A stretch of 64,000 nucleotides of DNA from Bryum argenteum (Eukaryota; Streptophyta; Bryopsida; Bryales; Bryaceae): positions 29,129,010 through 29,193,009 of the forward strand of contig CM073321.1 in the NCBI GenBank assembly GCA_037043015.1, given 5' to 3'. The notes beneath the pieces are model-generated. The model saw nothing but the letters and a program-made list of their open reading frames with translations. It ran no database searches and was not told where the DNA came from. A program made the position numbers and the translations under genes. Each line of letters starts with the position of its first letter. The first letter of the stretch is position 1. Of the stretch, positions 241-64,000 are shown piece after piece.

Positions 241-1076
241 TTAGCTAGAGTCGAGCTAAACTGTAGAGGATTGTGTCAATTACAGTTTAGCTCGAGTCGA
301 GCTAAACTGTAGGTGACATATGTCCCTACATTTTAGCTCGACTCGAGTTAAACTGTAATTAAAACAGGCCTCTACAGTTTAGCTCGAGTCGAGCTAAACT
401 GTAGAGGCCTGTATCACCTACAGTTTAGCTCGAGTCGATCTAAACTGTAGTTGACAAATGTCTTTACAGTTTAGCTCGACTCAAGCTAAACTGTAATTGA
501 CAAAGGCATCTACAGTTTAGCTTCAGTCGAGCTAAACTGTAGTTGACAGCAGTCTATAGTTTAGCTCGACTCAAGCTAAACTATAGATGTTACGCTAGGT
601 GTGATACAGTTCAGCTGAAGCCAACCTAAACTGCTGCCAAAGTTAACAAGTTTAAGATTACAACGCAAATAAGGGTTTAGGGTGAAGGGTTAAGGCTGTA
701 CTTAAATGACGTTACAGTGTAATTAATACACTAGTTAAGCTAGAGCCAACTATAAACTGCCCTTAGAATAAAATAACGCCCACATAGATGCAACTACAGT
801 TTAGCTCGACTCGAGCTAAACTGTAGAGGCATGTGTCAACTACAGTTTAGCTCGACTCGAGCTAAACTGTCGCCAAAGTTAACAATGAAATACTACATAA
901 GACGTAGTTTAGGGTTTCGAGAATAGTCTATACAGGAATGACGTAAGACTTGAAGTAAAGATAGACTAGTAGCTTGTAGCGTGCAGTTTAGCTCGAGTCG
1001 AGCTAAACTGTAAGTTTCATATATCTTGCTAATTAAATGCTAGGCTGCAGTTTAGCTCGAGTCGAGCTAAACTGCA
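241..1076. repeat. Array of about a dozen P1 palindromes upstream of cassette A gene 1
   Basis: Roughly a dozen copies of an odd-length palindrome with arms TTTAGCTCGA and TCGAGCTAAA around a single C or G lie at about 241, 281, 327, 364, 418, 464, 510, 553, 794, 841, 983 and 1046, with eroded copies near 602 and 730. Most extend symmetrically to CTACAG/CTGTAG. Some copies differ on both sides at once: CTATAG on both sides at 553-588, and TGCAG matched by CTGCA at 1046-1076. The copy at 364-412 is a perfect 49-bp palindrome. The array precedes the first recognisable exon of cassette A gene 1, and the same palindrome recurs in that gene's introns. By comparison with copy D, part of this stretch may be intron 1. 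Confidence 0.95.
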
Positions 1077-1173
1077 AGTAGTACTAAGAAGGATAAATCA
1101 AACTTAATTCCAAACCGATTGTATCAACTAACACACAGTTCCACTTTATAGCCAGGAGAAGGCATGAGTGCAG

Positions 1174-4100
1174 GAAGCGCTACAACACTTCTTCAAACTA
1201 AGGCCGTTGGACACTGACGAAGACGATGGCCACGACACGAAGCAGTTGGACTGCTGGGAATTCAAGGACCCATCAAAAGTGCTTTCGTGGTCCGCGAGAT
1301 GGATTCCATACACATCATTCCTCAGCCTTGTCGTAACATACGAAGGAGATGTAGAAGACCCCATGTGCGTTGACATTGACTCCGAGCTCACTGACTTCGA
1401 CCACAAAACAGAGAAGGAAGTCATAGCGACATGCACAACCTTCAGGGAGAAAGACAAGGAGTGTGCCTACAACTACGCCATTCTGATCGATATCAAGCAG
1501 ACTCGTTTTGACTTGGGGCAGTTAGTGGAGACCTTAGAGGCATCCAGTTTCGACGAAATGAAGACCACATTGAAACATGAAATGGTAAATAAAGCATGGC
1601 AAACCAAACAGGGGGGAGATCTTAAGGCCAAGCAGCTCGCGATCAAACTGCGATCTGTAATCTTGCATCTCACACACGCTGACATAATGGCGAAGACTCT
1701 CCACCTCAAAGGAAACGCTACACTGGAGGGATCTGGGCTAACCGCAACGGGGAGCGGCGTACAGAGCAGGACCCCATCACGCCTGCAACGTGCTACAAGG
1801 CTTGCCCCTACAACCACCACTACTTCTTACTCGCCTGTGAAGAGGAGAGAAGCTCCAGTGAAGAAGTCGGCCGAGGCGAAGAAGAAAAAGAGCATGCTCA
1901 TCCCCGAAGAGGATGCTTTTACGGCCATGAATGAGGTGATAGAGGCCATTCCAAAGAGCGTGAATACCATGGAGGAAATCGACTTCGAGAACGTGAACCT
2001 CATTTATCAGAAGTTCTTCACAGACTGTCAGGATTGTTTGTCTTTCCTAAACTTGACACAAAGATGGAGATCGACACAATGAGGATGACCGAGTCCCCTC
2101 CGCAGTGGACAATCCGGGCCTTCGAGAAGAAGGGCAAGACGGACTTGATGAATTTTCTCATCAATATGCCTGATAGATCGCAGAAGCAAACGCTCAGCGT
2201 GATGCTGAAGTTGGAGGTGAAGCCGAACGGCCTGGAAGATATGCAGGACTGCGATTTCTGGATAATAAACGGCCAACATAGTGTCGCCGCCTCAAAGCAG
2301 ATGCTTGAGTCCAAAGTCCCAGAAACAAGTTGTAAGGACTTCCGGGTGTGGTCTGCTTTCGTAGTTTGGACGAAGGATGAAGCCAAGCTCCGAAAGATTT
2401 GGGCGTTCTATAACAGAGTGAACCATTTCACTCCGTTTAAGCCGACATGGGCATCGAACATCCTTGCCGCCCGTACAGTGTGGCAGAACTACGGGCGCCC
2501 CCCAAACAGACATGCAGCAGCTGGGGTGGCAGACAAGCGGGTGCAAGTTAAGGGTATTGTGTCACAGTACGCAAATTTTCATGTAAGTATTACCGCAAGT
2601 CGCATCGCAAATCTACCTTTTTTGACTTTTAATAATTTACTGTGGCAGTTTAGCTCGACTCGAGCTAAACTAATGTCAGTTTAGCTCGACTCGAGCTAAA
2701 CCGTCACTGCAGGTTAATCAAGTTCTACATTTTATTTTTCGTTGCATCAAAACCTGTAGCTCGCACTTTAGCTCGGGTCAAATTAAAATGATCAGTCACA
2801 TAAAGGTCGGAATCCTGCGTTTGATTTATTGTGGCAGTTTAGCTCGACTCGAGTTAAACTGTTGCTGCTGCTTCATGAACCCCAACACTTCTGTATACAA
2901 CTGCTATTAAATTTTGTATGTGCACTTTGGCTCGACTCGTGCTAAAGTGATCACGCTCTTATACTCTGAAATCTTACATGCTACTTCTGTGGCATTGCAG
3001 AAATTCGTTGAATCTATTCGACGTAGGTTCGTCATGATTGATGTTGCCAAGGCCCAGGTAGAGGTGAAGAACAAGGTCCTGTCCCTCACTAATGAGCAAA
3101 AGATCATCACCTTCTCTGATGATCTCTGGGACGTATGGGCAGAGTTGATTGGAAGTGTCGCTCAGGGGACCCTTATCGACCCCTACTCCTTGAGGAAGTT
3201 GTGTGACAAAACAAGGTTCAAACCAGACAATGACCAAATTCTATCGAGGGAATTTTTTAAGAACCTCGGAAACCTTTCTGAGTCGGACCATAGGAAACTC
3301 TGTACACATATGCTTAATAGGTCAGGTCCGTCTCGGAATTTGGATTATCCAAAGGTTGCCCTGAAACAACCAGTCACCCTCCTTGAAGATTTCTACTCCG
3401 TCAAGGAGTACGTTGAGCGGTTGAAGCGGAAGGCGACCGCCCAGCTTCAGATCCACAAGATCCGCCCCACACTTGGGATCTTCAAGAATAATCAGTTCGA
3501 CGTGGATGCGTGGAAGAAGTTCAAGAAAGACTACCACGTCACGAAGGCCCCTAAGCACGCACTTTTGGAATGGGGTATCCCTGACAAATATTATGCGGAT
3601 CAGAGGTAGATTCAGCACAAGAATACCAGCTGTGAGGATCTCTCTCCCTGCGCAAAGAGGTTCTTCGTGGTGTTCCTGGAAAAGCGCGAGAAGTTCGTAG
3701 GCCCTGTTGGTAGTGTTATATTCCGTTCCTTACATCGCAGAACCCCACAGAGGCTTGGAGAATGGCTTGAAAACTCATGGCCGGCGGTTGCACCTAAGAT
3801 GAACGTTGGAATCATCGACTTCAGATTGATTCCGGGTAGTGGTAGCACCTCCGCTGATTCCTCGCCTGACCACCTATTCTTCGAAATGTTCATGGCGATC
3901 TTATCGTCTCAGAACAAGCCACCTCTCACAGATGTACCTTGCTGGTTCTTCATTTGTGGGGATGACAGTAATTACGCGCAAGTTGAGGCGTTTGCGAAAA
4001 ATCCTGCCTACTTCCCAGGGGCGAATTACAAGTTGATTCCATTGATGTACTATCCATCTCCGCACGAACGGATCGCGGGATTCAATGCGAAAGCCAAGCA

Positions 4101-5450
4101 AGCCTCGGAGTCCGTGCGTCTTCTCTTCATGATCAGGGAAGACGTAAAACTCGCGAGATTGCCAAGAACCGAGTATCGCGCTCCAAAGCACACGCTTTAC
4201 GAGAAGCTGCGGAAGTACAACGAGTCTCAGTATCACATGTACCCGATCGAGTTGAGGATGGATTTATATTTGCAGGTCATCCAGCTTTTTTGCCAGGAGT
4301 AGGAGAATATTTTTCTTGTTTACGCCGGCGGAAAAGCAAACTGCGCAAGCGTGGTAAGCTTCCTTAGGGTTTAGCTCGACTCGAGCTAAACCGACGTACT
4401 CAATTTGCGCTCGTATTATTCTCTATAGTTTAGCTCGAGTCGAGCTAAACTGTCAGTACAGTTTAGCTCAACTTGAGCCAAAATGTCATACCCATATGGA
4501 CCTGTAAGGCTCCCTTATAGTTTAGCTCGACTTGAGCTAAACTGTCATGCTAAACCATGTTTGCTCCCGCTTCAAATGAATCTGTTGTCTAAGCTGCAGT
4601 GTTTTCTTTGTAGATGTTGTCTCTCGATGCCTACGCCATATTCAATGCCGAAGATAAAGAGGACATCGACCAAGCGTACAGCGATGGGCTTACTCTTGAT
4701 CCCACTGACTTCTCCGTAAACGGCTATTTCGTCGACAAAGTCGAGTTTCCGGAGGTCGGGGCCATGCTTTTGAAGGGCAAGCGCAAAGCTGTTGTGTCCT
4801 TGGATGAAGAGGCCCTTGACGATGAGGCGGACGTCCTCAACCGGGAGGATTCAGGGTCAAGCAGAAGGCTAGTTCACGGTGAAGGCAGCACTTACAGCCT
4901 TGGTTCCAGAGGAGATGACGAAGAGTAAGACATGGAGTTGGACACGACCCCACGGACACCGCAGGAGTCGCGCACCGCTCCTGGGCGAGGAGGCGGCAGG
5001 GGGAGTGCAAAGCGGAAACGTAATCCCCTGTCGAAGGACTCACCCTCAAGTAGGTTTAAGGCTGAGGAGAATGCGGAATTTGCAGCACTACAACGGAAGT
5101 TCGAGGAGGAGACGACACACTGTAGGAAATTGGAAGAGCTCCTTGCGCAACAACAAATTGCGTAGAAGGAACGCGATAAGATGGACCAGGAACGCCATGC
5201 CCAGATGATGGAGATGATGCGGGTTTTATCTTCCGACAAGCCATTAACTTCGGTTCAAACAATGGCAATCACTTCTGCTCAGAGTGGTGATGCAGGTGCT
5301 CCACATGCTGGTCCTACTACTTCTCAGCCACTCACGTCCTCGACGCCTTCAACAAGGAAGCCTTCAGCGCCTACGCCTTCCTCTCCTACGCCTAAATTAC
5401 GACCTGAGGGTGACGCAGAAGAAGAATCTACAGGTCTTCCTTCTTCTTAG
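1174..5450 (+). CDS. Cassette A gene 1: ParB/DGQHR-like (NGQH) protein, frame-disrupted
   Basis: This is a multi-exon gene of unknown function. Exon segments are about 1174-2582, 3001-4276 and 4614-5450. The intron 2583-3000 has clean GTAAGT and GCAG ends and keeps phase 0. The next intron ends in TTTGTAG before an ATG at 4614. The first exon carries a basic Lys/Ala linker (about 1840-1900). Near 2260-2290 it reads FWIINGQHSVAAS, like the NGQH/DGQHR motif of the ParB-nuclease fold, followed by an F-x-V-W segment and a Y-N-R-V-N-H segment. The segment 3667-4276 holds VGIIDFRLIPG and CWFFICGD strands also found in copies B and D. The tail (4930-5450) is charged, possibly coiled-coil, then Ser/Pro/Thr-rich. 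A short first exon like that of copy D was not identified. The frame is broken in a couple of places, so this copy is probably not functional. The ParB-like assignment rests on the motif alone. Confidence 0.6.
2646..2950. repeat. P1 palindromes inside the intron of cassette A gene 1
   Basis: Within the intron 2583-3000 there are full P1 palindromes at about 2646-2671, 2676-2702 and 2835-2862, an eroded one at 2763-2790, and a variant at 2923-2950. The variant's outer arms are CACTTT and AAAGTG, again changed symmetrically. The equivalent intron of copy B contains a P2 palindrome and that of copy D a P3-like palindrome. Confidence 0.9.
4369..4547. repeat. P1 palindromes inside the second intron of cassette A gene 1
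   Basis: Four P1-type palindromes lie at about 4369-4392, 4423-4452, 4455-4488 and 4516-4547, just upstream of the acceptor at 4612-4613. The first has outer arms GG and CC. Copy B holds five P2 palindromes in the matching intron (30,540-30,945). Confidence 0.88.
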
Positions 5451-5564
5451 ATTTTGGATAGTATATAGTATTTAAGCTGTAAATGCCGGAAAACACATAT
5501 ACATGTGAAATTTTGTATCAAACTCAGACATTTTTTTGTAATTAATACATGCCTTTACTATTTT

Positions 5565-5593
5565 ACAGTTTAGCTCGACTCGAGCTAAACTGT
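5565..5593. repeat. P1 palindrome in the gene 1/gene 2 spacer of cassette A
   Basis: A single near-perfect palindrome (ACAGTTTAGCTCGA, centre C, mirror arm) sits between the gene 1 stop at 5448-5450 and the start of gene 2. Copies B (29,555-29,580) and C (54,652-54,673) have one palindrome in the same spacer, with different arm sequence. Confidence 0.9.
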
Positions 5594-5689: not shown

Positions 5690-6837
5690 TTTAATTTGGA
5701 TAACGAAGCAATCGATGTTCCATTCATGGAATATGTTACGCTTGAATGTTATCGCCATGAGCGGGTTCCATCGATGGAGGACACATTTAAAATGCACGAT
5801 GTCTCACATACTGAGAATGTTGTTGCTGTCCGTCATGAGATACATTGCACTGAGCAGTCACTCGGGTCAATGGGTGTCCATGTTCATTTAGAGGAGAGCA
5901 ATTATGATAATCAGGTATATTATGTTCCATACACTCTGCTCTCACCCATGGCATCGTTGCGATGTATTACATGATTCTGACCTTGAATTCATCGCACCAG
6001 TGACGAAAACTCCCCAGTAATTTTGTTGTGGTGCGCCGTTTTCATTTCATGTCAATAACGCATTGGTCAATGATCTAATTTCTAGAGAAGGCATAGGTCG
6101 GGTTCCAAGGAAATCCTCCGGTACTTGGTTAAATGTTGTTCTCAACCTCAATGGTATCCTCTGTAATTGTACCCCATTTTGGGAAGCTAAAGGATACAGA
6201 AACCGTGCCTTCTGTGTTCACTTGGGTACGTTGCGATTTGGGAACCGAGGTGGGGAAGAAGCTTGTATGGGTGAGGCCCAACTGCAAGGACTTCCTCTCT
6301 CGGGTGGCATCGTTCGCTACCATGAGGGTTTGGGGTTCGATGATCACAACAACCACGGAAGCCATTTGTGATTTTCTCTTCGGTCCTATAAACTCTATAA
6401 GGCCCCTTTGAATTCTTGGTCAAGAAGACTGTGACATGATTCCCTTGAAATCTAGTGGGAGCCGACCTTTGTTTTTGAAGGAACCGAGAAGTCAGAAGTC
6501 TATCTTCCTTAAGACTTTGTCAGCTCATCTCTTCAATAGCTTCGATGGTTTTTATACGGAGGCTAATACGCTCATCGTAGATGATAGTCCGGTTAAGTAC
6601 GTGCTTAATCAGCGGGAAAATGTTCTTTTGCTACCATCTTGGTCTCACAAGGACAATAGGGCACACGAGGATTCTAATTTGTTAGATGAGGTTTTGCCGT
6701 ATCTGTTAGAGCTCCATCAGTTTGACGGTCCTCTTAGCAAGTTTCGGTCATCATTTCAATTTGGACGTGCCATGATATATGATGATCGTGCATCATTAGA
6801 TCTGTATAATGATATACAAAAGGCATTAATAGAATGA
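5690..6837 (+). CDS. Cassette A gene 2: FCP1/NIF-like HAD-fold protein with altered catalytic motif, frame-disrupted
   Basis: Family members with an FCP1 homology domain are HAD-superfamily phosphatases, typically acting on phosphorylated RNA polymerase II tails or other phosphoproteins. Here the domain can be followed in order. Near 6123-6160 is WLNVVLNLNGILC, where the family has DLDETL. Near 6262-6390 is VWVRPNCKDFL followed by a VWGSMITTTTEAICDFLF segment, matching the RP..FL and W-T/S segments. Near 6570-6600 is LIVDDSP, matching the VDDSP motif. The protein ends at a stop at 6835-6837, equivalent to the stops in copies B and C. An N-terminal exon (about 5690-5914, donor GTATAT) has the PSMEDT segment shared with copy B. 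Both aspartates of DxD read as Asn in this copy, so loss or change of phosphatase activity is likely. The core is disrupted by a change of frame after the first motif. The domain call is firm; the function is not known. Confidence 0.65.
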
Positions 6838-7084
6838 AAAATTATTTTATATTCTATTGTCGGGTAATTTTTGACCCTTTGGTTTAATTTGAATTCGTAT
6901 CTTAGAATGTGAAGCTCCCGTAGTAGCTTTTTAGGACTTTTCATAGGTTTCAGAATTTTCAGTTTGTGAATACAAAGACAATGTGATCTTTAATTCTTCT
7001 CAAGACAAGTCTTTCTTGCATGAACTTTATGTACTCCGGATAATTGATGATTTTTTTGGAAAATTGTTGAAATAGATTACGCAG

Positions 7085-7865
7085 GGTGATTGTCGTGCTT
7101 CTCTGGATTCTTTGATGAATGCTGCGGATTTTGGGCCTTCACTTCGGAGTAGAGGACGATTATTGCAGTCTGCTGAAACGGCTCAATCTACCATGGATTT
7201 TTTGACAATGGCGGTAGAAGATGGAGTAGTTAATAGCCCTGTCACTAAGTCATCACCTCCAAAAGTGTTGCAATCCGCTTCCCACGTGTCGCCTCCAACG
7301 ATAAATCATAATGGTTCTCCTCTTCAAATTACATGTACGCCTACGAAGCGTATGTTATACAACATTGACGTGGATATTTCTAAAGAAGTTTTTGTGAAGG
7401 TTTGTTTCTTCATCTCTTGAGAAGTTACTCCAGAGTCTAGAGTGTCCTTTGTATGCTTTGAGTTAAGTGTTTGCAAGAACGAATAACTATTTGTAGATCT
7501 ACTGCTATACACTCTAATACGTTAGACAATTTTTAGACATTGTACTCATATGCTACCTATTGCATGTATGTATCTATTCGCTCATTCACTTATAAGAAAT
7601 GCCGTTGTTTTATTTTGTTCAGGATCGTGTTTTGGAGAGTCCAAAAGCATGTCCTTCGAAGTCTACGGAATACGGAGCAATCAAGCCTTCGTCAGAAAAC
7701 CGCCGCCACTCGCTACCTAAGTCAAGCATCAAGGACCGGCGTCGCAAAAGACTGCAACGCCTTCTTCATAGTCCATTGATGCAAGACAATGATTCTAGCT
7801 GGACGCGTCGGCGTCAACGAGCATTCATCCAATCTCGTATTGTCGCTTATGGTGGAAATCCGTAG
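7085..7865 (+). CDS. Cassette A gene 3 (or 3' exons of gene 2): short basic protein of unknown function
   Basis: Two exons can be read: 7085-7399 (acceptor GCAG, donor GT at 7400) and 7623-7865 (acceptor TTCAG), both phase 0, ending at TAG 7863-7865. The first exon contains AQSTMDFLTMAVEDGVVNSP, clearly matching the AQSTMNY..MAIDDGVVDSP segment of copies B and C. The second is rich in Arg, Lys and Ser (SIKDRRRKRLQRLLHS). No domain was recognised. All copies have a stop at the end of gene 2, so I treat this as a separate transcript or alternative 3' exons. No clear start codon was identified. Confidence 0.45.
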
Positions 7866-8995
7866 TAGTTACATCTATTAGCTACAGAAGTAATTATGCA
7901 CAGATTTGATAGTCATCACTCTTGTATGACATATTCTGTGAACCATGATTGATATTTACAAGCGAATAAATGGAATATTCTTTTATTCCCATCCTTTTTC
8001 TATTGTTTGTTCAGAGCAATGTCTCTTTTTACATATATTCATATCATGTTTGATGCATGATCTAGTACTTTAAGCTTCACATTGATGGATATTTTAGATG
8101 ATTCTATACTCTTAAATCTCCCAAAGTCCTGCATATTTCCCAATATAACGAATATGGGGTTACACGGAGAAAAATATAATAGATAGTATTTATCAATATG
8201 ACTTAAGAATAATTATGTATGCTATAAATCATAAAGTAGGTATAAAATTCACATATATCCCTTGTCCTCTCAACTCCTCTTATTCTATTACTAGTATGTT
8301 CGCGTGTCCTTTGGACACACAGAGGAGTGAAGGCAAAATACAACAAAGCAATATATGCACTAAGTAGCACTTTAAGTCCCAAAAACCTTATTTTGTGTCG
8401 ATTTAACGAATATGACCTTTTGTGCTATGTTTATGTTTTGGTATGTTGCAACAATCAAAGTAAGACAAAATCTTTGGCCTTGAGAGCAGATTTTTGTACA
8501 AGGCTGGAAAAAATGCACCCATATTGTTTATATGTAACATAGCCTCAAGTAATTCAACACATGTATGAATTTATAAAACACCATAGGGTACCGAGAATAC
8601 GCCCCGAGTAGCTTTTTATGTAAATATACGGTCATCGAAAACACAAAAAAAAATGTAAATAGCCCCACATGAAATACCCTCTTAATTCAGGTGTATACCT
8701 TAAATTACAAGGAGTGATCTCCCCGGGTTGCCTTTCCTTCTCATGATTACTTCCGCCCGGTCTCTAATTGGTCACTCTCATTATTTTTATTTTTTATTTT
8801 TATTTTCTTTTTACTTTTTCAATCGCTCATTAGTTTATATTTATTATCATGTTTTATTTATTGTCTCTTATACTAATAACTATAATTATCATGTTTCATA
8901 ATTTATATGTTTTTTCTTTTTTTTTCCATCCCCACTTATCTTCATCCTCTCCAATAATTCATTTTTTCCAGTATCACTCTACTCATTATCACAAC
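7866..8995. other. AT-rich stretch without a supported gene
   Basis: This DNA follows gene 3 of cassette A. Short open frames here are of low complexity and have no recognisable domain. There is an A-run near 8645 and a pyrimidine-rich tract at about 8780-8970. It ends at the left edge of the inverted duplication. Confidence 0.6.
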
Positions 8996-9176
8996 AAGGT
9001 TTCCAAGCATGTAAGACACACTACCAAATTTGTCCCAAGCAGGACGGTAATGCGTGCTGTTTGCTCGGGACTCTCCTTGGTCACCTCACCTTGTCTCTTG
9101 CCAAGCCCAGGGCGTCACTCCCGAGGTCCTCTTGGCTCACCACAGTGTTTGGGCATCCTTTGGAAAGGGATGTGAC
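8996..9176 (-). mobile_element. LTR fragment (edge only) carried in the inverted duplication
   Basis: Read on the minus strand this begins TGTCACATCCC at 9176, the same LTR edge as the solo LTR that starts at 25,449. It is cut off at 8996, where the duplicated segment ends. It sits in the last intron of the duplicated cassette piece. Confidence 0.75.
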
Positions 9177-9257
9177 AATCTTTGAGTTTTTCTTAGTTTA
9201 TGGCTTCATTCGTAGTTTGATTTACTTACATTTCTCTATCTCTTTTCATGGACTTAG

Positions 9258-9726
9258 GCGACAACTGCAGCAGCTCTGCCCATACCGGTCATCTTTGAGT
9301 CCCCGGCTCTTCGTGTATCACCTCATAAGGCATCGTCGCTGAAAATATCTCGTGGTGCAACGACACATTCTCTCTCTACGCCTTGTCCAATTGAAGTCTT
9401 TGGAGTCGGGAGCAGAACTTGGAGACTGCATGACAGAACTAATGGGGCCACCTAAACCGTCTGTTGCCCACGCTGTTGATACCTCGCGTTTTCCCTTGCG
9501 TACTATGCGCCCGCCTTTACACAAGGGTCACCGCCAGACTCAATCACACGATGGATTTCAGCCCAGAGTTAGTTGTCCTCTAGTTCGTGATACATTGGAG
9601 CAACAGATTTTGAAGCTTCAAAGACGTGAAAATTCAAGTTTGCGTTCGTCACCATACAAAGGCTACACTCGTGGACCAGAAGTGTGGAAGGCACTAGCTG
9701 AAATTCGAAGCCGTTCGCACTTGTGA
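9258..9726 (+). pseudogene. Duplicated terminal exon of cassette gene 3
   Basis: The exon follows the acceptor GACTTAG at 9251-9257 and matches the terminal exons of copy B (26,996-27,442) and copy C (56,780-57,223). Shared segments include HKASSLKISR, GHRQTQSHDGFQPRV and TRGPEVWKALAE. It has changed frame once relative to copy C and has no upstream exons here, so it is a detached copy carried by the inverted duplication. The product is a basic, Ser-rich C-terminus with no recognised domain. Confidence 0.6.
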
Positions 9727-10104
9727 TACAACAACAGTCTTGATATGATTTAGAGGACATTGATCGGCGTAGTTCTTCATGGATAGCCCACATTCAACAC
9801 GATACTGTATTGTTCTATTGGTATAGAAATATCGTATTTACCATCGTACATTCAGATCATTCATATGTAACTAGAGCTCACATTTATATCTGGATGAGCA
9901 TATTTCCTTTGACGGGGTCAATTGGTGTATACAATGTCTATAAATAAACATACATTCATGTATATTCCATTGTGGTATACAATTATTCATCCAACTATAT
10001 CTACTTTATACCATTTTTAACGGCCTATTTGGCTTTTTATCATTACTTCTGGGACTCAACAATACTCTCATTATTGAGGGATACTCTCAAAATAATGAAT
10101 ATGG
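9727..10104 (+). repeat. Conserved 3' flank of the cassette (first copy)
   Basis: This non-coding stretch after the terminal exon is shared with 57,227-57,622 (copy C) and with the reverse strand of 24,541-24,890. It holds an imperfect inverted repeat near its end (TCATTATTG... then ...CAAAATAATGA). Similarity to copy C stops at about 10,104, which marks the likely 3' limit of the repeated unit. Confidence 0.65.
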
Positions 10105-10542
10105 TATTTCTTCACCTCCGGCCTGGTCTAGTTCTTTGGGCTGATTCTGAGTTTTGTTTTTGTTCATTTGAGGTAGTGTTACTGTTCCAAAGACCAGTAC
10201 ATCTTGCTCGGTAGCCAGCCACTGTGCCTCCTCTTCGTCTGTAAGAACTTGTGCAAAGTTGTAACAGAGCAACACTTACGGTAATTTTGCTCTCAGCCCC
10301 TTCCTTTGACTTACCAATATTATTTTGACCATCTTGTTGCCCCGAATAGTGACCATATTGTTGCCTCAATCATGATAAACTTCAGCATCAATTAACAAAG
10401 GACGACCTAACAACATACTATAGGCTGCATTTACTTCCTTATTTTTAATCACAGTCAAAGTAATAAGGTAAGGAATAACATGAATGTGAATACCATTCTC
10501 ACATTGCGTATCAAGCCCTTAGGGCGACCACAGTCTAGTCCT
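10105..10542 (-). mobile_element. Gypsy-type LTR retrotransposon fragment (fossil)
   Basis: This is the same piece of Gypsy pol spacer (protease to reverse transcriptase) as 24,094-24,540, carried here on the minus strand by the inverted duplication. It is a broken fragment only, without LTRs. Confidence 0.75.
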
Positions 10543-24890: not shown

Positions 24891-24894
24891 AAGA

Positions 24895-25372: not shown

Positions 25373-25448
25373 GTCCATGAAAAGAGATAGAGAAATGTAA
25401 GTAAATCAAACTACGAATGAAGCCATAAACTAAGAAAAACTCAAAGAT

Positions 25449-26971: not shown

Positions 26972-26995
26972 ATAGACGAACTGCTTTACGTATTA

Positions 26996-27905: not shown

Positions 27906-27968
27906 CTAGATACGAATTCATTTAAGAGGAATCATCAACAAGGATGATATGCAATATGATATAGCCAA

Positions 27969-29434: not shown

Positions 29435-29554
29435 AAAGTATTTACACGATGAACACTAAGTCCAATCTAACAAAACTGTCCGAGGGAAATATATATACTA
29501 GGCTAACAACAACTCTCGAAGGCTTCTACAGGCGATTTGCCATTAATCGAAGGA

Positions 29555-48400: not shown

Positions 48401-48558
48401 AAGAACCGCAACAACTTTGTATTCCAATACACGATGTTTCAACGGAGCGAAACATTAAAATTCCAACTTTTGCAAAACCACACCTTCTAGCATACATTGC
48501 AATGCAAGTTGAATACGTAGATAACGAACGCCTTCAAAATGATATAGACCGTTATTAG
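45409..48558 (+). CDS. DUF7869-type transposase-like gene 1, frame-disrupted
   Basis: An ATG at 45,409 after TTTCTTGTAG starts MENLGFGSPVVGYQNL. Further segments lie at 45,822-46,216 (basic RRPRRKYS), 46,189-46,971, 46,880-47,060, 47,150-47,535 and 47,587-48,558. Diagnostic blocks in order are DGHRVCNACYARALGYSQRR, SIIVDGMDQNTTMVPK, an H-K-H-D-S-N segment, a D-N-x(4)-E-N-K-N segment at about 47,160, and LLVGHTHEDIDQRFS (near 47,265). This set is what I know from DUF7869 proteins, whose spaced acidic residues suggest an RNase H-like, transposase-type fold. The C-terminal part (about 48,080-48,440) looks like a small beta domain. A few frame changes interrupt it. No terminal inverted repeats were found. 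Inactive transposon gene and decayed domesticated gene are both possible. Confidence 0.65.
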
Positions 48559-49908: not shown

Positions 49909-50445
49909 ATTCAACTCGAGTCGAGTTGAAATTTTACCTCTGTAGTATACATGTAAACTTTCAACTGTACAATTTCAACTCGAGTCGAGTTAAATTGTAT
50001 CTCGTCAAGTATCAGACATGGTGTCAGAATTAGGAATGATATATCCATGGGTGTTGATATTCATTTTGAGTCGAGTTGAAATGGGAAATCCTCTAGTTTC
50101 AGTTGGATTATTAAGAAGCGGATGCTCCTTGTATTGGTGTGGAATTTCAAGTCAAGTCGAGTTGAAATTCACGGCGACTGTGGATATTCGTCAGGAACAC
50201 TTGATATTGTAATAAGCCCAATAATACTGTATTTAACTCGAATCGAGTTAAATATGAATTATTACATAATTGGAGATATATTCGTTAAGTATCAATATTA
50301 TTCACAGAATCAAGAATGCTCTATCTCTGGGTGATAATATTCAACTCAACTCAAGTTGAATTGGACATCATCGAGTCCTCTGGTTTATCCGTGAGAAGAT
50401 AATCTCTCTCCGGAATCCAGTGTTCAACTCGAGTTGTGTTGAAAT
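49909..50445. repeat. Array of eight P2 palindromes upstream of DUF7869-type gene 2
   Basis: Palindromes with arms TTCAACTCGA and TCGAGTTGAA lie at about 49,909-49,933, 49,970-49,997, 50,061-50,083 (short centre), 50,142-50,169, 50,230-50,254, 50,336-50,362 and 50,420-50,445. Outer arms are symmetric in each copy but differ between copies: CAATTT/AAATTG, GAATTTC/GAAATTC, TATTTA/TAAATA. The core is the same as in cassettes B and C. Position relative to the gene is like that of the arrays before cassettes A and D. Confidence 0.9.
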
Positions 50446-53923: not shown

Positions 53924-54625
53924 GGCTCAAGTGACGACGATGACGATCCTGACGAAGAAGTTGAGGCCTACGGATCCCAACTTCTAATTACGCCCCAAAC
54001 TAGGCGAGGCTCAACTTCCCATCTTCCTCAGCCCCAGGAACACGGCTTTTCCGATAGCTCTCTTACGGCTTCCACCCCTTCGCCTCAGAGGAAGCAAAGG
54101 GGGACGACATCCGTTGACACTCTAATGAAGAAGTTGGTTAGAATGCAGAAGGAGATGTAGGCTCGACATAGGATCAAGGTGGAAGCAATGCTTGCTCGAG
54201 AGCACGAGGATTGCAAAGCTCAGAGACTAGAGGATGAGCAACGATGGAGCAAAATGATGTCTCAAGTCTTTGAGAGAATACCTGGGATAGTAGTCCAAGC
54301 GCTTTTGAACCTCTATGCAAAGCCGCTCCTCACGCTCGACCCAAGTTATAGTAAACCTCTGCTTCTGACCGACGGGGCCACTCAGTCTTGCGAAAGCGGT
54401 GCAGCTCGAGAGACATCTCTTCGATGTTCCCTCCTAGGCATGCCATTCAAGTCGAGTGCAGCTCCAGCACCTGCGGGCAATATCGAACAGGTGGATTGTG
54501 GAGGTCCAGGCCCCGCAAGTGGCTCCATTCTCACGGACCTAGTCGATCTGGAAATAAAGCCGGTCGATGAAGAGGAGCAGATAGGAACACATGATGAGAC
54601 TCTCAATACGAATGTTATTGAATAA
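53924..54625 (+). CDS. Cassette C gene 1: C-terminal tail only (5'-truncated)
   Basis: Homology to the end of copy B gene 1 starts inside an acidic segment (GSSDDDDDPDEEVEAYGSQ) and continues through SHLPQPQEHGFSDSS and LEDEQRWSKMMSQVFERIPG to a stop at 54,623-54,625. The frame is interrupted once after the KKLVRMQKEM segment. No upstream exons exist, so this is a 5'-truncated copy. It has a Ser/Pro-rich tail with a coiled-coil-like charged region and no catalytic part. Confidence 0.6.
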
Positions 54626-54651
54626 GGTTGAACTCCATGATCTAGTCTTCC

Positions 54652-54673
54652 ATTTAACTCGACTCGAGTTGAA
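54652..54673. repeat. P2 palindrome in the gene 1/gene 2 spacer of cassette C
   Basis: Arms TTTAACTCGA and TCGAGTTGAA around a central C, one mismatch. Same position as in copies A and B. Confidence 0.85.
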
Positions 54674-54856
54674 CTGCTTCTACGACTAATGGCAGATTGC
54701 CTGCAGAAGCCTTTGAGAGTTGTTGCTAGCCTAGTATATATCGCCTTAGGACAGTTTTGTTAGATTGGACTCAACGTTCATCATGTAAATACTTTTTGTA
54801 GATGACGCTCATTTTGAACGAAGAGTTTGGAATACAATCATATTTTCTTACAGATT

Positions 54857-56070
54857 TTTTCCCTTTGATTTTTACGTGGGCTCTGTTGATTCCAAAGTGT
54901 TCCAAATGTATGTTTGTCCCATGAGGTCTCCCCTATGCAAGACACTAGTCCACTGAGTCCTTTTCATGGTGAGCCAAGTAACATGGCGCAAGATGTTTAC
55001 AATGAAGGTCACATTCTGGATTCCATCTTGCTCGAGACATTCCTCTTCCATCCTCGACCGCTGTACAAGATGCACAAATAGCTGAAACTCAATCAGAGGC
55101 GCCGATAAGTTTTTCTCGTACCAAAATCTCATTTTCATTGAATCCTTTCTTTATGAGTTTGTTGTAATCGCATTGTTTGACTACCGGATTGCTGAGTAAT
55201 ATAGCGTTGGACAGTCTCAAAATTAAGCAGTGCAGTACTTAACTGTCTACACATTTGTCTGCCCCCCTTGAAAACAAGGAATGAGTCATTTGCACACTCC
55301 GGTAGTTGCAGCCGTGGAGGATGTCTCTCGTTCTATTTCTTCAAGGGTGCCATGCAAGTGGGTCAATGTCATCCTCGACTTGAACGATATTCTCTGTGTT
55401 TGCAAGGAGAGGAGATTATGCCGAAGGACCAAGTTTACAACATGGTCGCATGTGCACATTCCTCTGTCCTACCCGCTCCTATTGGTCCCAAGGTCGTTTT
55501 CGTTCGGCCCTTCTGCCTTGATTTCCATCGTGAGTTGAGTGAAGTTGCATACGTCTCCGTATGGAGTTCGATGGTTCATGCAACCACAAAGTCCATATGT
55601 GACTACTTCGTCTGGGTGAGCCATCCCCGTGCCTTCTTTGGGGGCAGAACTCATGTGAGGTTGTCAAGGTTCGTGGACCGCGGAATAAGTTGTCCAACTT
55701 CAAGTTGAAGGGGACTAATAAGGATCTCTTTTACAAGCCACTGGATATGCTTTTCAATGGTCTAAACTCAAAGTTTAATGAGCATGACACGATCATCATC
55801 GACGATAGCCGTGAGAAGCACGTCATGAATGAACCCGTGATTGTTGTACTGCCAGTCTTGTGGTGAGAGCATGATGGATGTGACAGATTCTTGGTTGACG
55901 AGCTCCTCCCTTGGATTTAACGTCTACATCAAAGCCGCGGTCAGGGCTTGTTGTCTTTCCGTAGGGAAGACAACATTGGGCATAGAATGCTCTCTAAAGA
56001 ACTCAATACTTCAGAATACAAAGAGCTTAGTAGCGCCGTAGAGACTTCTAGGAAGCTAGTGCATGATTGA
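54857..56070 (+). CDS. Cassette C gene 2: FCP1/NIF-like HAD-fold protein, frame-disrupted
   Basis: Homologue of 5690-6837 and of the minus-strand copy at 28,172-29,434. The core shows CKWVNVILDLNDILCVC (about 55,350-55,400), then FVRPFCLDFHRELSEVAYV and SSMVHATTKSICDYF (55,497-55,610). It continues with NFKLKGTNKDLFYKPLDM and TIIIDDSREKHVMNE (about 55,690-55,835), and a tail ending KLVHD at TGA 56,068-56,070. IIIDDS is the equivalent of the family VDDSP motif. The first motif keeps one Asp and has Asn in the second position, as in copy B. It has been interrupted in frame in several places. The product, if ever made, would be a nuclear phosphatase-like protein of uncertain activity. Confidence 0.6.
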
Positions 56071-56250
56071 GCTAGTCACCCTTGCTTGGTCTCATCTGAC
56101 AAGAATCAAATTTGACATGTATATTGTGTAAATTATAATAAATAATTTCAATAATATTTTTACGTTTCAGACTGGTTTCATTTCAAAGCGTCCTTGGGTC
56201 CAACGTCTTAACTTATTGTAGTATTTGATGGTGTTAGTTCTGTCAAGATT

Positions 56251-56275
56251 GATTTAACTCGAGTCGAGCTGATTT
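56251..56275. repeat. Palindrome in the gene 2/gene 3 spacer of cassette C
   Basis: An imperfect palindrome (TTTAACTCGA, centre G, TCGAGCTGA) at the position that corresponds to 27,969-27,989 in copy B. As there, one half-site is B-type and the other A-type. Confidence 0.75.
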
Positions 56276-56336
56276 GGCTATATCATATTGCATATCATTC
56301 TTCTTGATGATTCCTCTAAAATGAATTCGTATCTAG

Positions 56337-57223
56337 GTGTCCTATTCTGTCTCAGTTTCGGACAATGATTTTGATTTCCGTTGCGCTGCTTTTGCTGATT
56401 TGATTTTGGACTATGGACAATACAAAATTTTGCAGTGGAATAGGCCATAGAATGTACTCAACAGCTACCGCTCAATCAACTATGAACTACTCGATGATGG
56501 CAATCGATGATGGTGTTGTGGATAGTCCTCTTTATGGCGGTAAACGACCACACAATGCATGTTCTCCTTCCCCGTTGAAAAACCGTACCATGATAGACAA
56601 ATCAAGTTGAGGTGGCGTTCCGCAAAGAAAGCTTTGTGATGATTCTGAGTTAGTTGAGGATCCACTTCCACTATAGGTATGTGATAAGTGAAGCAGTTCA
56701 TCTATGAATTTTTCTGTGGTTGTTAACTCCAATCGTAATGTGATTTACTTACATTTTTCTATCTCTTTCATGGACTTAGGTGACCGTTGCTGCAGCCGTG
56801 CCCAAACCATTCCAATTTGAGTCCCCGGGTGTTCGTGTTTCACCTCATAAGGCATCGACGCCGAAAAAATCTCGTCGTGCGACATCACATTGTCTCTCTA
56901 CGCCTTGTCTATTGAAGTCTGTGGAGTCGGCAACAGTACTTGGAGACTGCATGACGAAATCAATGGAGCCGCTTAATCCTTTTGTTGCCCATGCTGATGA
57001 TTCTTTGCGTTTGTCCTTCCGTACTATACGCTCGCTATTACACGAAGGTCACCGCCAGACTAAATCACACAACGCATTTCAGCCCAGAGTTACTTGTCTT
57101 CCAGCTCGTGATGCACGGGAGCAACGGATTTTGAAGCTTCAAGCACGTGCAAAATCAAGTTATCGGTCGTCATTGTATACAGGCTACGATCATGGCCCAA
57201 AAGTGTGGAAGACACGAGCATAA
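56337..57223 (+). CDS. Cassette C gene 3: short basic Ser-rich protein, frame-disrupted
   Basis: The first exon follows the acceptor ATCTAG (56,331-56,336), reading VSYSVSVSDNDFDFRC, and includes AQSTMNYSMMAIDDGVVDSP (about 56,470-56,530). The last exon (56,780-57,223) follows GACTTAG and reads in one frame to the stop, with SPHKASTPKKSRRATSH, GHRQTKSHNAFQPRV and GYDHGPKVWKTRA. The protein is basic with no known domain. Early exon sequence is frame-disrupted. This copy best shows the intact terminal exon. Confidence 0.5.
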
Positions 57224-57226
57224 ATT

Positions 57227-57622: not shown

Positions 57623-58069
57623 GTTCAAGTTTCAAAAAATCTTTCAGAACATCATGAGCGTAGCAAGTAAAGGATAAGAAATTATATATAGAAACCTTAT
57701 TTTAGAGATGAATTTGCGTTATGAGGTTGACATACCAAGTTGCTTAGTTTTAATACATAGAATCTTCAAATATGTTTGAAGTTCACGATGCGATGCTCCA
57801 ACCTCATCCCTTGCTCTCATTGTTCCGTTTTGCAATAGAGTTTGTCCATTATCGCAGTATCGTGCACTTTTTTGGAGTTTTAGACTGCGGAAGTTCTCTG
57901 CTAAAAACCGTTTCAAAAAACCTGTAAAACAAACAATGGTACACAAGCGTTTCAATTTCAGCATGCACATTTGTTCCGTAAAATTCAGCAAGCAGACGAG
58001 TTTCGAAATTATTTAGCAGATTTTCACATTTCAGAACAAGACTGATTCCTTGAGTCATTCATAATCTTA
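57623..58069. other. Non-coding stretch after cassette C
   Basis: No gene was recognised. An open minus-strand stretch at 57,719-57,991 has no recognisable domain. Confidence 0.45.
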
Positions 58070-58970
58070 GAATACCTCACCTTATTTACGAAATACTAAT
58101 CTTAAAATACCTCACTTAAAATAACTCAATTCTAATCTTAGAATACTACATTCACAAGAATTGAGTATTATACTTAGAATATCATATCAAATTAACTACA
58201 TAATCATGTTAGAATACCACACCTTATTTACTAAATACTAATCTTTGATTACCTCATTTAATATATCTCAATTCTAATCTTAGAATACTACATTTAGAGT
58301 AATTGAATCCTATACTTAGAATACTACACCTAATTTACTAAATACTAATTTAAGTATACTACACTTAAATTAATTGAATATTATACTTATAATTACACAC
58401 TTCATTTACCAAATAATAATATTAGAATACCTCACCTCATCTACTAAATACAAATCTTTGAAGACCTCACTTAAAATAACTCAATTCAAATCTTAGAATA
58501 CTACATTTAGAATAATTGAATACTATACTTTGAATACCATATCAAATTTACTAAATAATCATGTTAGAATACCTCAATTTATTTACTCAATAGTAATCTT
58601 AGAATACCTCACTTAAAATAACTTAACTCTAATCTTAAAGTACTACATTTAGAATAATTAAGTACTATATTTTGAATACCATATCAAATTTACTAAATAA
58701 TCATGTTAGAATACCACACCTTATTTACTTAATTATTAATCTTAAAATACCACACTCAGAATAACTAAAAAATGAACATAAAATACCACCCTTAGAATAT
58801 TAACCATACAACATACACTTACTAGGTTAAAGAATGTGAACAAAGAGTATGTCACTCAAAATACTAAATTTATCATACGACATTTAGAAAAAGTGAATAC
58901 TATCCTTAAAATACTTCACATAATTTACCAAATGCTAATCCTTAAAATCCTACTCTTAGCAAAACTTAGT
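58070..58970. repeat. AT-rich degenerate tandem repeat region
   Basis: Phrases such as CTTAGAATACCTCACTTAAA, TCAATTCTAATCTTAGAATA and TTACTAAATACTAATCTT recur many times with varying spacing, giving a higher-order repeat of roughly 150-190 bp. There is no coding potential. Confidence 0.8.
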
Positions 58971-59160: not shown

Positions 59161-60106
59161 ATGCGTGTAATGATGGAGGGTCAGGATGACCCCAACCATC
59201 AATTAGCTCCGCCATCATTCTTCATTTTCCCACATTCTTCTCCATTTCTGCTTATTCCTCGTCACTCCTTGCTTTGGCTGTGCATGTCTCCTCGCCCTTG
59301 TCTGCGTTTCCTCCTTGCTCCTCGCGCTTTGTCTTTGCTCGTCGCTTCTCTACTTGCTTGTCTGTGCTCACTTTTGCTTGTATGTGCTCACTCTACTTAC
59401 TTGCAGCGGCTCTGCCCTGTTTTTTTTGCTCGCATTTCAGCGCTCTTACTCGCAGCGTCTCAACGCTTTTCTTGCTCGCGTCATCGACGCTCACTCTGCT
59501 TGTCTGCGCGTTGCTTATTTTGTTCCGCGTCACTCTAAATTCAGGTTCGACAATTTTCTAAACTTTGCTATTTCTGTTTTAAATTCAGCATTGGCAGTGC
59601 AAAAAATTGCTTCAAGGGTTTAGGGTTTCGGCCTGAGTGCTTGCATTTTGTTTCTTTATAGTGCTTGATTTTCTGTAGGGTTTGAACTAAATCCATTTCA
59701 TTGTTAATTTACGTTCATGGCCTCAACAGACTCATAAAAACGGGTTGCAAATTCTAGCTTGCTACTGTGAGGAATTTCAAGATTTTTTTTACCTTGTTGG
59801 AAGCGCACCTAGCATTTTCTGGTAAGTGACCTTACTAGTTGTAATAGGGTGTATTTGAATCGCTGTTTTGGTGCGTTGGTTGGTGAAATTAGAGAATTGG
59901 GAGCAGCATGAGCATGCAATTGTTGTAATTTGCTATAATCTATGACTGTAATAGATTTTGGTTCTAGCTGCAATTAGACAATCCGCGCTCCTAGCTAAAT
60001 TAGGGCTTTAGTGAATTGTAGGTTTTTTTAAAGAATTAGTTCAAGAGAAATGCCGTACACTTCGGAACTTTCAATTCAGCACATGAAATTTTATGTTCAC
60101 ATATGT
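59161..60106. other. Possible leader region before cassette D, no supported gene
   Basis: A pyrimidine-rich tract (about 59,210-59,545) with CTCGC/GCTTG-type repeats gives a long but low-complexity open frame that I do not accept as a gene. The remainder shows no feature. Confidence 0.5.
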
Positions 60107-60980
60107 ATTGTCGCCTTGACGATACATTATTTCTTTATTTAGTATGCAATTTCAGAATGATCCATGCTCACCAACGCAATTATCGTCAACCCGACGATAG
60201 ACATCAACATTTTTCTAAAATAAAAATTACATGTCCATAAATTTTGTGGGTTCATGTTGATACCGTCAACACGACAACAAGTCAAGGTTGGTTTCGCCTA
60301 CCCAAATGCGCTAAACAGTAGTTGTCGTCGAGTCAACAATACAATTTGATTCATGGTCACCAACAAAGTTATCGTCGACTCGACGATAAACATGTACATT
60401 TGTCTAAAATAAAATTTACATGTTCATAACTTTTGAGGTTTCATGTTGATATCGTCGACACGACAATAAGTTAGGATTGTTTCCCGCCTTCCCAAATGCG
60501 CTAAACAGTAGTTATCGTCGACTCGACAATACAATTTAATTCTTGCTTACCAACACAGTTATCGTCGACCTGACGATAAACATTAACATTTGTCTACAAT
60601 AAACATACATGTTCATAAATTATGTAGGTTTATATCGATATCGTCGGCACGACGATAAGTCAAAATTGTTTTCCACCTTCCGGAATGCGCCAAACAGTAG
60701 TTATAGTCGACTCGACGATACAATTTGATTCAGAATTGTCTTAACTCATCAATAAGATTCACAAATATCGATACCTAATCTCAAAAATAAGGGACCATAT
60801 AGAAGTTAGAACAGGACTTCCAGTATTATGACCATTAATTTTGTTGATTGTCAGTCAATATCTTTATTTATCGTCGACACGACGATATCGGTTATAGTTT
60901 GTGTTGTTGTCACAAAAATCTGAGACAACTTCAATGAAGCTAATTAGAACATCGTAGTTATTATCATTGGGTCGACGATA
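60107..60980. repeat. Tandem repeat of about 190 bp carrying P3 palindromes (TTATCGTCGA arms)
   Basis: A unit of about 188-191 bp is repeated at least three times between about 60,165 and 60,740. Markers are CTAAACAGTAGTT at 60,311, 60,502 and, as CCAAACAGTAGTT, 60,690. Each unit carries three palindromes with arms TTATCGTCGA and TCGACGATAA or close variants. Examples are at 60,368-60,388, 60,449-60,468, 60,513-60,533, 60,559-60,579, 60,638-60,659 and 60,867-60,888. The array ends just before exon 1 of cassette D gene 1. Confidence 0.9.
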
Positions 60981-61051
60981 AAGAACATTCCATAGGTCTA
61001 AAGGAAGAAAACGGAAGGTATGACATGATAAATCCTGGAATGGTTACAGCA

Positions 61052-64000
61052 ATGGCGAGGACAAAAAGCAGTGCTAGAATTGTCCGGATAGAAAACATGG
61101 AAGTTGATCACTTGTCGGATGAGACATCAGATCACATAGAGGTACGACTTCCTTAGAATAAGTTTCTAACCTCTACGCGCATTGTTATAGCCGATTAGGA
61201 GGTCTTTGACAAATTCTCACTCTTCAATGAGTCTGCTAAGAAGGAATGTTCGCATGATGGTGTTTTATCAATATGATCAAGAATCGCTCCAAATAATAAG
61301 AGTAAATGACGAATGAACTCATACTAGATTTACAAATTGCGACGCTTCATAGCCACCACTTTTTCTAGTTTTTCCGCATCGCTGAAATAGTCGTCAACTC
61401 TTATCGTCAATCGACAATAAGATTGTAACTTGTGGACTCTAGAGAGCACACTAATATTTTTATTTGCTTGCACTCATGGTAATTTAGTGCTGGAGATAGA
61501 CATAGGATATCGTTGGGTCAACTATTCATTAGGAAGTAGAGTCAGGCAGTACAATGTTATACTGTTTCTCAAGTAAGTTTGCTAAGGTTGCTTCTTTTCT
61601 TCTATGTAGACGGCAACGATGACGTCCAAAGATACATACAACTACAATGTCACTCGTCATCACCTTGTACCGTGTGAGAATCCCTTCAAGCCTGAGGCCT
61701 TTAGCGACATGCAAGACACATACGCCAAACTCTTCGAATTCCGAGAGAACATAATGGAGTGGTCATTCAAAGAGAACAAGTTCAAGAATTTTGTGATGGT
61801 GCAAATTAAGATCGGAACCTCAGGGATTTTCAATGTCTGGAACTTAAACGAGAAAGTCTCGATCATCGAGAATGTCTGGGAACACTTTATAGTGATCGTA
61901 CTTAGAGCGGTATATGACAACGGAAAGGAGCTTGACCACCAGCACTCAATTGTCTTAGATTGTAGAAAGGAACATGCGAGGTTCAATCTAGAGAACCTCA
62001 TGTCATTCATCCCGAGGACAAAATGGGAACCCCTCAACGAGGAATTCAGGAAATGAAATTATATTCCTTAGGTGCACAATAATGGAAATAGTATTTCCAA
62101 TCGATTGAATAGAATCTTTGCCTCACTCTAATGGTACGCCACTGAATCCGTCACTAAAACGCCGAATACTGGGGGCAATCTAAAGAAAAAGTGCGCGGCT
62201 CCCACGAAGTCGCGGACAGATCTTACTTCCACCGGTGCTGGATCTCGTAGTCGTGCTACGAAGCCTAGTCATCCAAGACTGGCGGCCAAGAAGAGAGATG
62301 CCCCTGCTCAAGTTGCTGCTGGCTCAAGCCGAAAGCGGAGGAAGAGCGCAGCTGCTTCACGTTTGGCTGCTGCTGACGATTCTACTGCTGGAAGCGTTAT
62401 TTCGGCTATAACAACAGTAACAGCCGGCCGCACATGGTCCAACAATGAAGTGCCCAATTTTGGGAAGATCGCAACAATGCAGAAGGATTTTTGGGATAAA
62501 CACAAGAAATGCTTTCTCGTCGATTTGGAGCCTGTAGATGTGACCATCGATGAATGCATCCTTGCGAATGATCGGTACATCATTGGAACCCTTCACAAGG
62601 ACATAATGGAAAGTGTTAAGGCTAGTCTTGTCAATATGATTGACGTCCGGCAGAGACAGAAGGTTTGCTTGATGCCTGTTGATAAGAATAATCAACTTTT
62701 TAGAAGGAAGCCTTTAAATTGGGAAGATATCAAGGACGGCAATTTCATGACCATAAACGGCCAGCACAACATCTTCGCATCGAAGGCACTCAAGACTGGA
62801 GGTTGCGGAGCAGATCGTCGTAAGAAGCTTCGCACATGGAGTGCATTCATCGTGTAGTCCCTCGATCCATCTCAGTTGACGGCTATTTCCAAATTCTATA
62901 ACATCACAAACCATCTAGACCATGCCAAGCTAACATGGGGCAACTAGATTGTAAGTTGTAGAAACATTTGGACCTCGCTCAATCATCCCGCCGAGTACAG
63001 CCTTGAAGACAAAGAGAGGGGTAACCGCACTGTCTTCAACGAGGCGAATTACAAGGTTAATTTGCATTCCCGCTTGTTATCGTGGGGTCGACAATAAGGT
63101 TCTTCTATTACTTGATCGATTCTTGTAATCTAGCTTGCGTTTACTTACTTGAACTTTTTGGTAAAATTCAGAGTTTCACGGACGCTGTCATGGAGAGATT
63201 CCAGAACAGCAACCCCGACGGTGAATGAGCTAAGATTCAATCCTTGAAACATCTGAAGAACGAGCTCCAAATGATCACTTTGCCGGATTATATCTAGAAT
63301 CACTGGCAAGTATTCCTTACCTTGCACCACAACGGGGAGATTATTGACCCAACCACGATACAACCCTACAAGCTCACCAAGGGGTACAAGACGCACGTTC
63401 TAAAGCGCGAGTTCTTCGAACGCTTTGGTTGGTTCACGGATAAGGACTTTCAAACCGTGGTTCAGCATCTGCTCATGTTGACCCCCGGTTGAAATGCACC
63501 GTATTCCAAGATCTCAGTCCACCAAACCAAATTTCTTGTACCCAACAACATGTCGAGCGCTGATTGGGTTGAGCGGCATAAGCGCAAGAAGGTGGTGATG
63601 CAGAAAATCCTGGATCTCAAGCCTTTGCTCAAATTCGTGGACAATGGTGGTGATGTAATAAAGGCAACGTGGTCGGCCTGGAAAGCTAGGCACAAGTTCA
63701 CGTCGGCTACATGGGATCATCTTATTGCACATATACCTGCGGATTTCTTTACGAAAAGACTCCGCAATGAGGCAAGACATAAGCGAGCAAAAGATATGAC
63801 CGACGTTCATTCCGACGTACAATTTATGATGAAAAGGTTTATGGCCACGAAATACCGATTACCCGGGAGTGCAAGAGGAGTACAGATGAGAGGATAGACT
63901 GGGCCAACATGGCGCTTGTTGTGAGTTCTATGTATACTTACTCTACTCGGCCGGTAAACCTCGTCGTATTGGATGTTCAGAACATTCCACGTTGCCCCGT
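61052..64000 (+). CDS. Cassette D gene 1: ParB/DGQHR-like (NGQH) protein gene, partial at window end, frame-disrupted
   Basis: A short first exon (61,052-61,141, MARTKSSARIVRIENMEVDH) ends at a GT donor and joins in phase 0 to an exon at 61,610 (acceptor TATGTAG). The second exon has VLDCRKEHARFNLENLM, matching ILIDIKQTRFDLGQLVE of copy A. It then has a basic linker (SSRKRRKSAAAS, about 62,320-62,350) and the block FMTINGQHNIFASKAL (about 62,745-62,790), the NGQH motif, followed by RTWSAFIV. An intron at 63,054-63,171 sits where copy A has 2583-3000. After it come VLKREFFERFGWF, a W-V-E-R-H-K-R-K-K segment, and, at the very end, LVVLDVQNIP, equivalent to VGIIDFRLIP of copy A. Several stops interrupt the frame. 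The rest of the gene lies outside the window. Confidence 0.6.
61399..61420. repeat. P3 palindrome in intron 1 of cassette D gene 1
   Basis: A palindrome with arms CTTAT and ATAAG outside a GTC/GAC core in intron 61,142-61,609. The outer arms match each other and differ from the other P3 copies. Confidence 0.75.
63076..63098. repeat. P3-type palindrome in the second intron of cassette D gene 1
   Basis: An eroded P3 palindrome (TTATCGTGGGGTCGACAATA) in intron 63,054-63,171, at the intron position that carries P1 in copy A and P2 in copy B. Confidence 0.7.

Follow-up and report, generated by a model that had tools for sequence, protein, structure and literature searches.

The subject of this work is a stretch of 64,000 nucleotides of Bryum argenteum DNA (assembly GCA_037043015.1, contig CM073321.1, positions 29,129,010 to 29,193,009 of the forward strand), called the window in its whole length, to which all coordinates given without a contig name refer. 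It holds four copies (A, B, C and D) of a cassette of genes 1, 2 and 3, together with long palindromes of odd length in the introns, spacers and leaders of these cassettes and in the leader of a gene for a DUF7869 protein. An earlier note on this DNA had placed such palindromes at equivalent intron and spacer positions of the four cassettes, with a common TCGA-S-TCGA centre (S being G or C) and arms differing from copy to copy, and had suggested that a cassette-encoded protein recognises them and co-evolves with them. Our scan found the palindromes at the places claimed, and we noticed that their type follows the lineage of gene 1.

Palindromes of the cassettes

The cassettes, the palindromes belonging to them and the DUF7869 gene are arranged as follows.

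236-1080: A-type array ahead of the gene 1 INGQH exon, with 12 sites; part of it is a 46-bp tandem repeat
1172-2583, plus strand: cassette A gene 1, INGQHSVAASK exon; frameshift near 2036
2584-3000, plus strand: intron of cassette A gene 1, containing five palindromes of type A
3001-4353, plus strand: middle exon of cassette A gene 1; TAG in frame at 3607 and 4300, frame continuing to the splice donor at 4354
4354-4613, plus strand: next intron of cassette A gene 1; four A-type palindromes at 4370-4541
4614-5449, plus strand: final large exon of cassette A gene 1, with a basic patch, a stretch resembling a coiled coil (both by inspection) and two in-frame stops
5569-5589: A-type palindrome, gene 1-gene 2 spacer of A
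5696-6837, plus strand: cassette A gene 2, NIF/FCP1-like domain
7078-7865, plus strand: cassette A gene 3, no family match
26993-27906, minus strand: cassette B gene 3
27969-27989: palindrome, gene 2-gene 3 spacer of B, equidistant from types A and B
28183-29353, minus strand: cassette B gene 2, NIF-like
29559-29579: B-type palindrome, gene 1-gene 2 spacer of B
29621-30537, minus strand: cassette B gene 1, coiled-coil-like exon
30584-30928: six B-type palindromes, second gene 1 intron of B
30933-32015, minus strand: cassette B gene 1, middle exon with stops inside; INGQH exon missing
32049-32069: B-type palindrome, gene 1 intron of B equivalent to 2584-3000 of A
49910-50443: B-type cluster in the leader of the DUF7869 gene
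50520-52548, plus strand: DUF7869 gene
53924-57225, plus strand: cassette C (end of gene 1, gene 2, gene 3), with about 85% identity to B and one palindrome each at 54653 and 56253
60105-61000: D-type palindrome cluster, partly within 190-bp repeats
61051-63897, plus strand: cassette D gene 1, stops inside, truncated by the window end
63077-63097: D-type palindrome, gene 1 intron of D equivalent to 2584-3000 of A

The palindromes are real, far above chance and copy-specific. An odd-palindrome scan, together with a search for three 21-bp types (A, B and D), was run over the whole window, and with up to 4 mismatches over 21 bp to one of the types allowed it gave 50 sites, against a mean of 0.15 and a maximum of 1 in 20 first-order shuffles of the window. 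There are 22 sites in A (240-5589), 9 in B (27969-32069), 2 in C and 11 in D (60180-63097), and the B-type cluster leading into the DUF7869 gene, which is absent from the text of the earlier note, adds 6 more and a seventh with 5 mismatches. Type A reads TTTAGCTCGA-S-TCGAGCTAAA, and the half-sites of types B and D are TTYAACTCGA and TTATCGTCGA, respectively. Only the type of their own copy is fitted by 45 of the 50 sites, the other five (332, 2767, 2838, 27969 and 56253) are ties between the similar types A and B, and none fits a foreign type; G or C stands at the centre of 50/53 sites, when three beyond 4 mismatches are listed too. Counted from the centre, the motif extends over 10 bp in B, about 9 bp in D and 14-16 bp in A, and sequence information drops sharply beyond these edges. 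Imperfect sites are frequent in D, where one palindrome (61400-61421) is even-centred.

All 50 site centres lie outside exons, though exons, whose limits we set from homology and splice signals, occupy about 70% of the cassette spans (naive binomial p 1e-26, the sites not being independent owing to tandem copies). Nor are palindromes equally common in unrelated non-coding DNA, as introns and spacers elsewhere in the window, outside the cassettes and the DUF7869 leader, gave no site at up to 4 mismatches.

Copies in a second assembly and the lineage of gene 1

When genome_contigs was searched for exact copies of the A/B palindrome TTTARCTCGASTCGAGYTAAA, one contig matched, CADCWO010000071.1 (L001), binned as a cyanobacterium, and in the assembly to which it belongs (G001) three further contigs with gene 1 were found (L016, L017 and L018). 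Because the genes on them have introns, these four contigs are probably misbinned eukaryote DNA in a cyanobacterium-binned genome; the AVDCRST prefix presumably points to a soil crust sample. With an open gene 1 exon as a query, only G001 gave a match among 386 genomes of its phylum, and the palindrome patterns were not found in viral_contigs. Gene 1 is open in L016 and L017, gene 2 is open also in L016, and these two loci share a fourth palindrome type, TTCAGCTCGA, while L018, with a D-like gene 1 truncated by the contig end, has a fifth, TTATCCTCGA. The palindromes counted in the four contigs all lie outside exons (28/28). Within G001, 14 of the 15 places matching the A/B pattern at up to 3 mismatches are on contigs with element genes (reversed control pattern, 1 place), and the D/L018 pattern occurs at five places, all on the contig of L018 (control, 0).

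Independent copies carry palindromes at common positions, counted here over those loci that contain the position. Own-type palindromes precede the INGQH exon in A, D, L017 and L018, and they occupy the first gene 1 intron in all six loci (A, B, D, L016, L017, L018) and the second in 4/4 (A, B, L016, L017); the gene 1-2 spacer has a palindrome in 5/5 (A, B, C, L016, L017). L016 has an extra site at 788, in an apparent intron of gene 3, though the reading frame is open through it.

Over six loci, of which the other assembly supplies three, gene 1 lineage and palindrome type go together. In a tree built on the first two large exons, L017 pairs with L016 and D with L018 (support 1.0 each), the two pairs are joined with 0.87, and A and B stand separate. 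Half-sites divide accordingly into TYARCTCGA (A, B, L016, L017) and TATCSTCGA (D, L018), a split supported in gene 1 at 1.0. Gene 1 distance and motif distance are correlated (Mantel r 0.80, 4/720 permutations), as they are among the five loci remaining without L016 (r 0.95, 2/120 permutations). L001, with A-type sites and no gene 1 on its contig, stood outside this test.

The open copies of gene 1 are under purifying selection: between L016 and L017 dN/dS (the ratio of nonsynonymous to synonymous substitution rates) is 0.14 and 0.12 in the first two exons and 0.25 in the coiled-coil exon, at dS of 0.85-1.13. Over the same divergence none of 80 arm positions changed in four equivalent palindromes, the fourth pair having two candidate partners in L017, and the centre base is swapped between G and C in three of the four with the arms intact, which might come from inversion of sites or from a centre at which G and C are interchangeable. 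Palindromes were also kept better than spacers in the A repeats (525/588 vs 453/700), in the 50-kb cluster (50/62 vs 82/139) and between B and C (40/42 vs 2028/2335), pair counts within tandem arrays not being independent.

Genes of the cassettes and of the DUF7869 loci

Gene 1 is homologous among A, B and D by BLAST and forms a single gene with at least three large exons (INGQH, middle and coiled-coil-like). The junction between the middle and the coiled-coil-like exon is of phase 0 on both sides in A, L016 and L017, with a GTAAG donor closing the former and an AG preceding the latter; in L016 the coiled-coil-like exon has no initial ATG, and the TAG at 4300 in A is premature. This junction rules out a split into two genes and places the sites 4370-4541 of A and 30584-30928 of B in the next intron of gene 1, as the earlier note had it. 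By BLAST, the last exons of A and B do not match. Comparison of gene 1 with PHROGs, NCBIfam, Pfam and PDB sequences brought no family assignment; protein patterns found no relative of the window copies in viral_contigs or genome_contigs, and the open gene had none in viral_contigs.

Gene 1 of A, B and D has 9 TAG, 4 TGA and no TAA as in-frame stops in its first two large exons, and a TAA and a TAG stand in the third exon of A. As the stops are both TAG and TGA, we read them as decay and not as recoding, and a different genetic code was rejected; their bias to TAG and TGA would fit a loss of methylated C.

Gene 2 matches Pfam PF03031 (NIF/FCP1-like HAD; cut-off 21.8 bits) in L016 (53.8 bits, E 2.3e-14) and A (27.1 bits), and the pieces of B and C fall under the cut-off (20.3 and 17.2 bits). 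The catalytic motif I of this family is DxD, and in gene 2 it is degenerate, with the second Asp replaced by Asn (LNLN in A, LDLN in B and C, FDLN in L016). A gene 2 search of G001 returned only the L016 copy. The gene 3 copies of A and of B/C are homologues, and the single piece scanned had no Pfam match.

The DUF7869 domain (PF25273, cut-off 26 bits) was matched at 51559-52545 with 120 bits, and in an open frame of 963 codons in L001 with 145.8 bits; none of 14 control genomes had a match to the profile. The two genes share 57% identity in one long stretch and 40% in another. L001 has A-type sites in the leader (3819, 4194, 4274) and, downstream, three weak ones (4 mismatches) and one weaker. 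Another DUF7869 gene of the window, frameshifted and from a different subfamily (45403-48558; 33% identity over 149 columns to the L001 protein), has no palindrome at up to 4 mismatches. No relative of the window DUF7869 gene was found by pattern search, none of the L001 protein in viral_contigs, and comparison with PDB sequences gave no match.

Among other features, the tail of cassette B with adjoining DNA takes part in an inverted duplication of 97.5% identity (8993-10540 vs 24095-25633), and an array with copies 142 and 71 bp apart lies downstream of cassette C (58046-58842). Long minus-strand frames at 38759-42762 are probably one gene, of which three scanned pieces did not reach any Pfam cut-off.

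Possible role of the palindromes and related systems

We hold it fairly probable that the cassettes are copies of a transposon-like element of several genes, in which each family encodes a dimeric protein that binds its own palindromes and sustains expression of the element. The likeliest candidate would be the product of the long gene 1, with its basic patch and coiled-coil-like exon. Such a protein would recognise a long odd palindrome, with a half-site of about 9-15 bp around the G/C centre, repeated in the introns, spacers and leaders of its own family, and its binding might keep or turn on the element genes, the simplest way being to oppose silencing by the host over the full length of the element. 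A conserved contact could recognise the inner TCGA-S-TCGA and a more quickly changing one the outer bases, so that, as reader and sites diverge together, families would cease to cross-talk. A dimer on double-stranded DNA would agree with the symmetry of the sites, with their G/C centre and sharp edges, and with the coiled-coil-like exon. The co-evolving pair proposed in the earlier note appears partly supported by the sequences, and neither of the two outcomes that the note named as refuting it was seen, as far as the data reach.

VANDAL elements of Arabidopsis offer a close parallel for such a system: their short motifs are private to a family, crowded in introns and in intergenic and terminal non-coding DNA, often tandem, and different between related families, and sequence-private anti-silencing is described for VANC (PMC5735166, PMC10398659). 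The concentration of family-specific motifs in non-coding DNA is common to both; the element-encoded reader is demonstrated for VANDAL and would be expected for the cassettes. The sites differ, those of the cassettes being odd palindromes of about 19-31 bp and that of VANC21 a non-palindromic 9-base motif, YAGTATTAY, arrayed in one orientation (PMC5735166). Neither MULE transposase nor DUF1985 nor DUF287 had a Pfam match in 30 window stretches (29 distinct) or eight contig proteins, the element ends not being located and a gene beyond the scanned stretches being possible. The analogy of the earlier note therefore stands for the logic and falls for the proteins and the motif: because the defining VANC domains were not found and VANC motifs are non-palindromic, the cassettes would be VANC-like in working and not a VANDAL, their proteins showing no relation.

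CACTA (En/Spm) elements likewise combine an element-encoded protein with repeated motifs in non-coding DNA, the subterminal TnpA sites lying near both ends, whereas the cassette palindromes occupy internal introns and spacers. The window does contain a CACTA-type element upstream of cassette B (32772-36427; ends CACTATAAGAAA, 3-bp duplication TCT), and these paired termini bound a separate element unrelated to the cassettes; it has many GATGTCTT/AAGACATC motifs near its ends, different from the cassette palindromes. The sites of parS are palindromes as well, and an INGQH motif is common to gene 1 of A, D, L016, L017 and L018; DGQHR proteins, however, have Arg after QH, where gene 1 has Ser or Asn. 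Membership of gene 1 in ParB/DGQHR was rejected, the likeness being confined to the motif, with no Pfam, NCBIfam or PDB sequence match.

Instead, the palindromes could be bound by a transposase of the element, for which the DUF7869 protein is a candidate, or by an accessory excision protein, and would then be comparable to subterminal TnpA sites and free of any regulatory role. Both the DUF7869 gene at 50 kb and that of L001 are tagged in the leader, and DUF7869 is possibly transposase-like, but sites in internal introns and spacers and a motif type that tracks gene 1 speak against this explanation, which we regard as unlikely, if worth keeping in view. It is improbable, too, that the cassettes are a host gene family bound by a host transcription factor: the purifying selection on open copies and the lack of visible transposon ends would suit such a family, but the four cassettes fall into three families, are all broken, and share their 64 kb with the CACTA element and with a zinc-knuckle stretch, retroelement-like by inspection and under the Pfam cut-off, and a single host factor leaves the family-private spellings unexplained.

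Two further explanations were rejected. RNA hairpins acting in splicing or stability would be expected in introns, leaders and spacers, most of which are probably transcribed, yet over 53 sites arm mismatches of G-T on the sense strand (26) are no commoner than those of A-C (28), which gives no sign of RNA pairing and makes this explanation very improbable. Small independent hairpin-type mobile elements, inserting into non-coding DNA, would likewise be short, palindromic, multicopy and non-exonic; the types are exclusive to lineages, diverged copies share positions, and both the emptiness of the rest of the window and the placement of matches in G001 (14/15 and 5/5 places on element-gene contigs) leave next to no room for them.

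Several observations weigh against the proposed dimeric reader of a transposon-like element. Gene 1 has no DNA-binding domain recognised in Pfam and NCBIfam searches, and AlphaFold2 models of its motif region and of DUF7869 are of low confidence (predicted local distance difference test, pLDDT, 34 and 37). The DUF7869 copies bear the tag without an adjoining gene 1, the gene 2-3 spacer has a palindrome in two of four loci (B and C, not A or L016), three of the eight L016 sites (4250, 4325, 5811) are without an L017 counterpart, and in the 190-bp repeats of D the palindromes are no better kept than the spacers (161/189 vs 311/380). At most five gene 1 lineages are independent, so the correlation with the motif rests on few points. 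All window copies are broken, those of L016 and L017 being open. Neither terminal repeats nor target duplications of the element came to light, and for this reason its mobility is something we infer.

A more far-reaching version of the proposed reader system can be put forward only tentatively, and we think it somewhat doubtful: that this is a second, independently evolved system of element-private recognition in eukaryotes, in which a new gene 1 family with a dimerising coiled coil reads the tag, a degenerate gene 2, resembling the phosphatase of the RNA polymerase II carboxy-terminal domain (CTD), links the tagged DNA to transcription, and the element thereby licenses its own expression, reader and tag having co-diversified over at least five lineages with the TCGA-S-TCGA core fixed. 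Bibliographic entries on DUF7869, on ParB-type and NIF-type transposons and on palindromic anti-silencing did not, at the level of the entry, describe this element. If the version is true, unrelated proteins, longer symmetric sites and open copies in contigs already sequenced would show that co-evolution of reader and tag arises repeatedly, and five natural reader-site pairs would be at hand to study how the specificity of a protein and of dozens of its scattered sites can change jointly.

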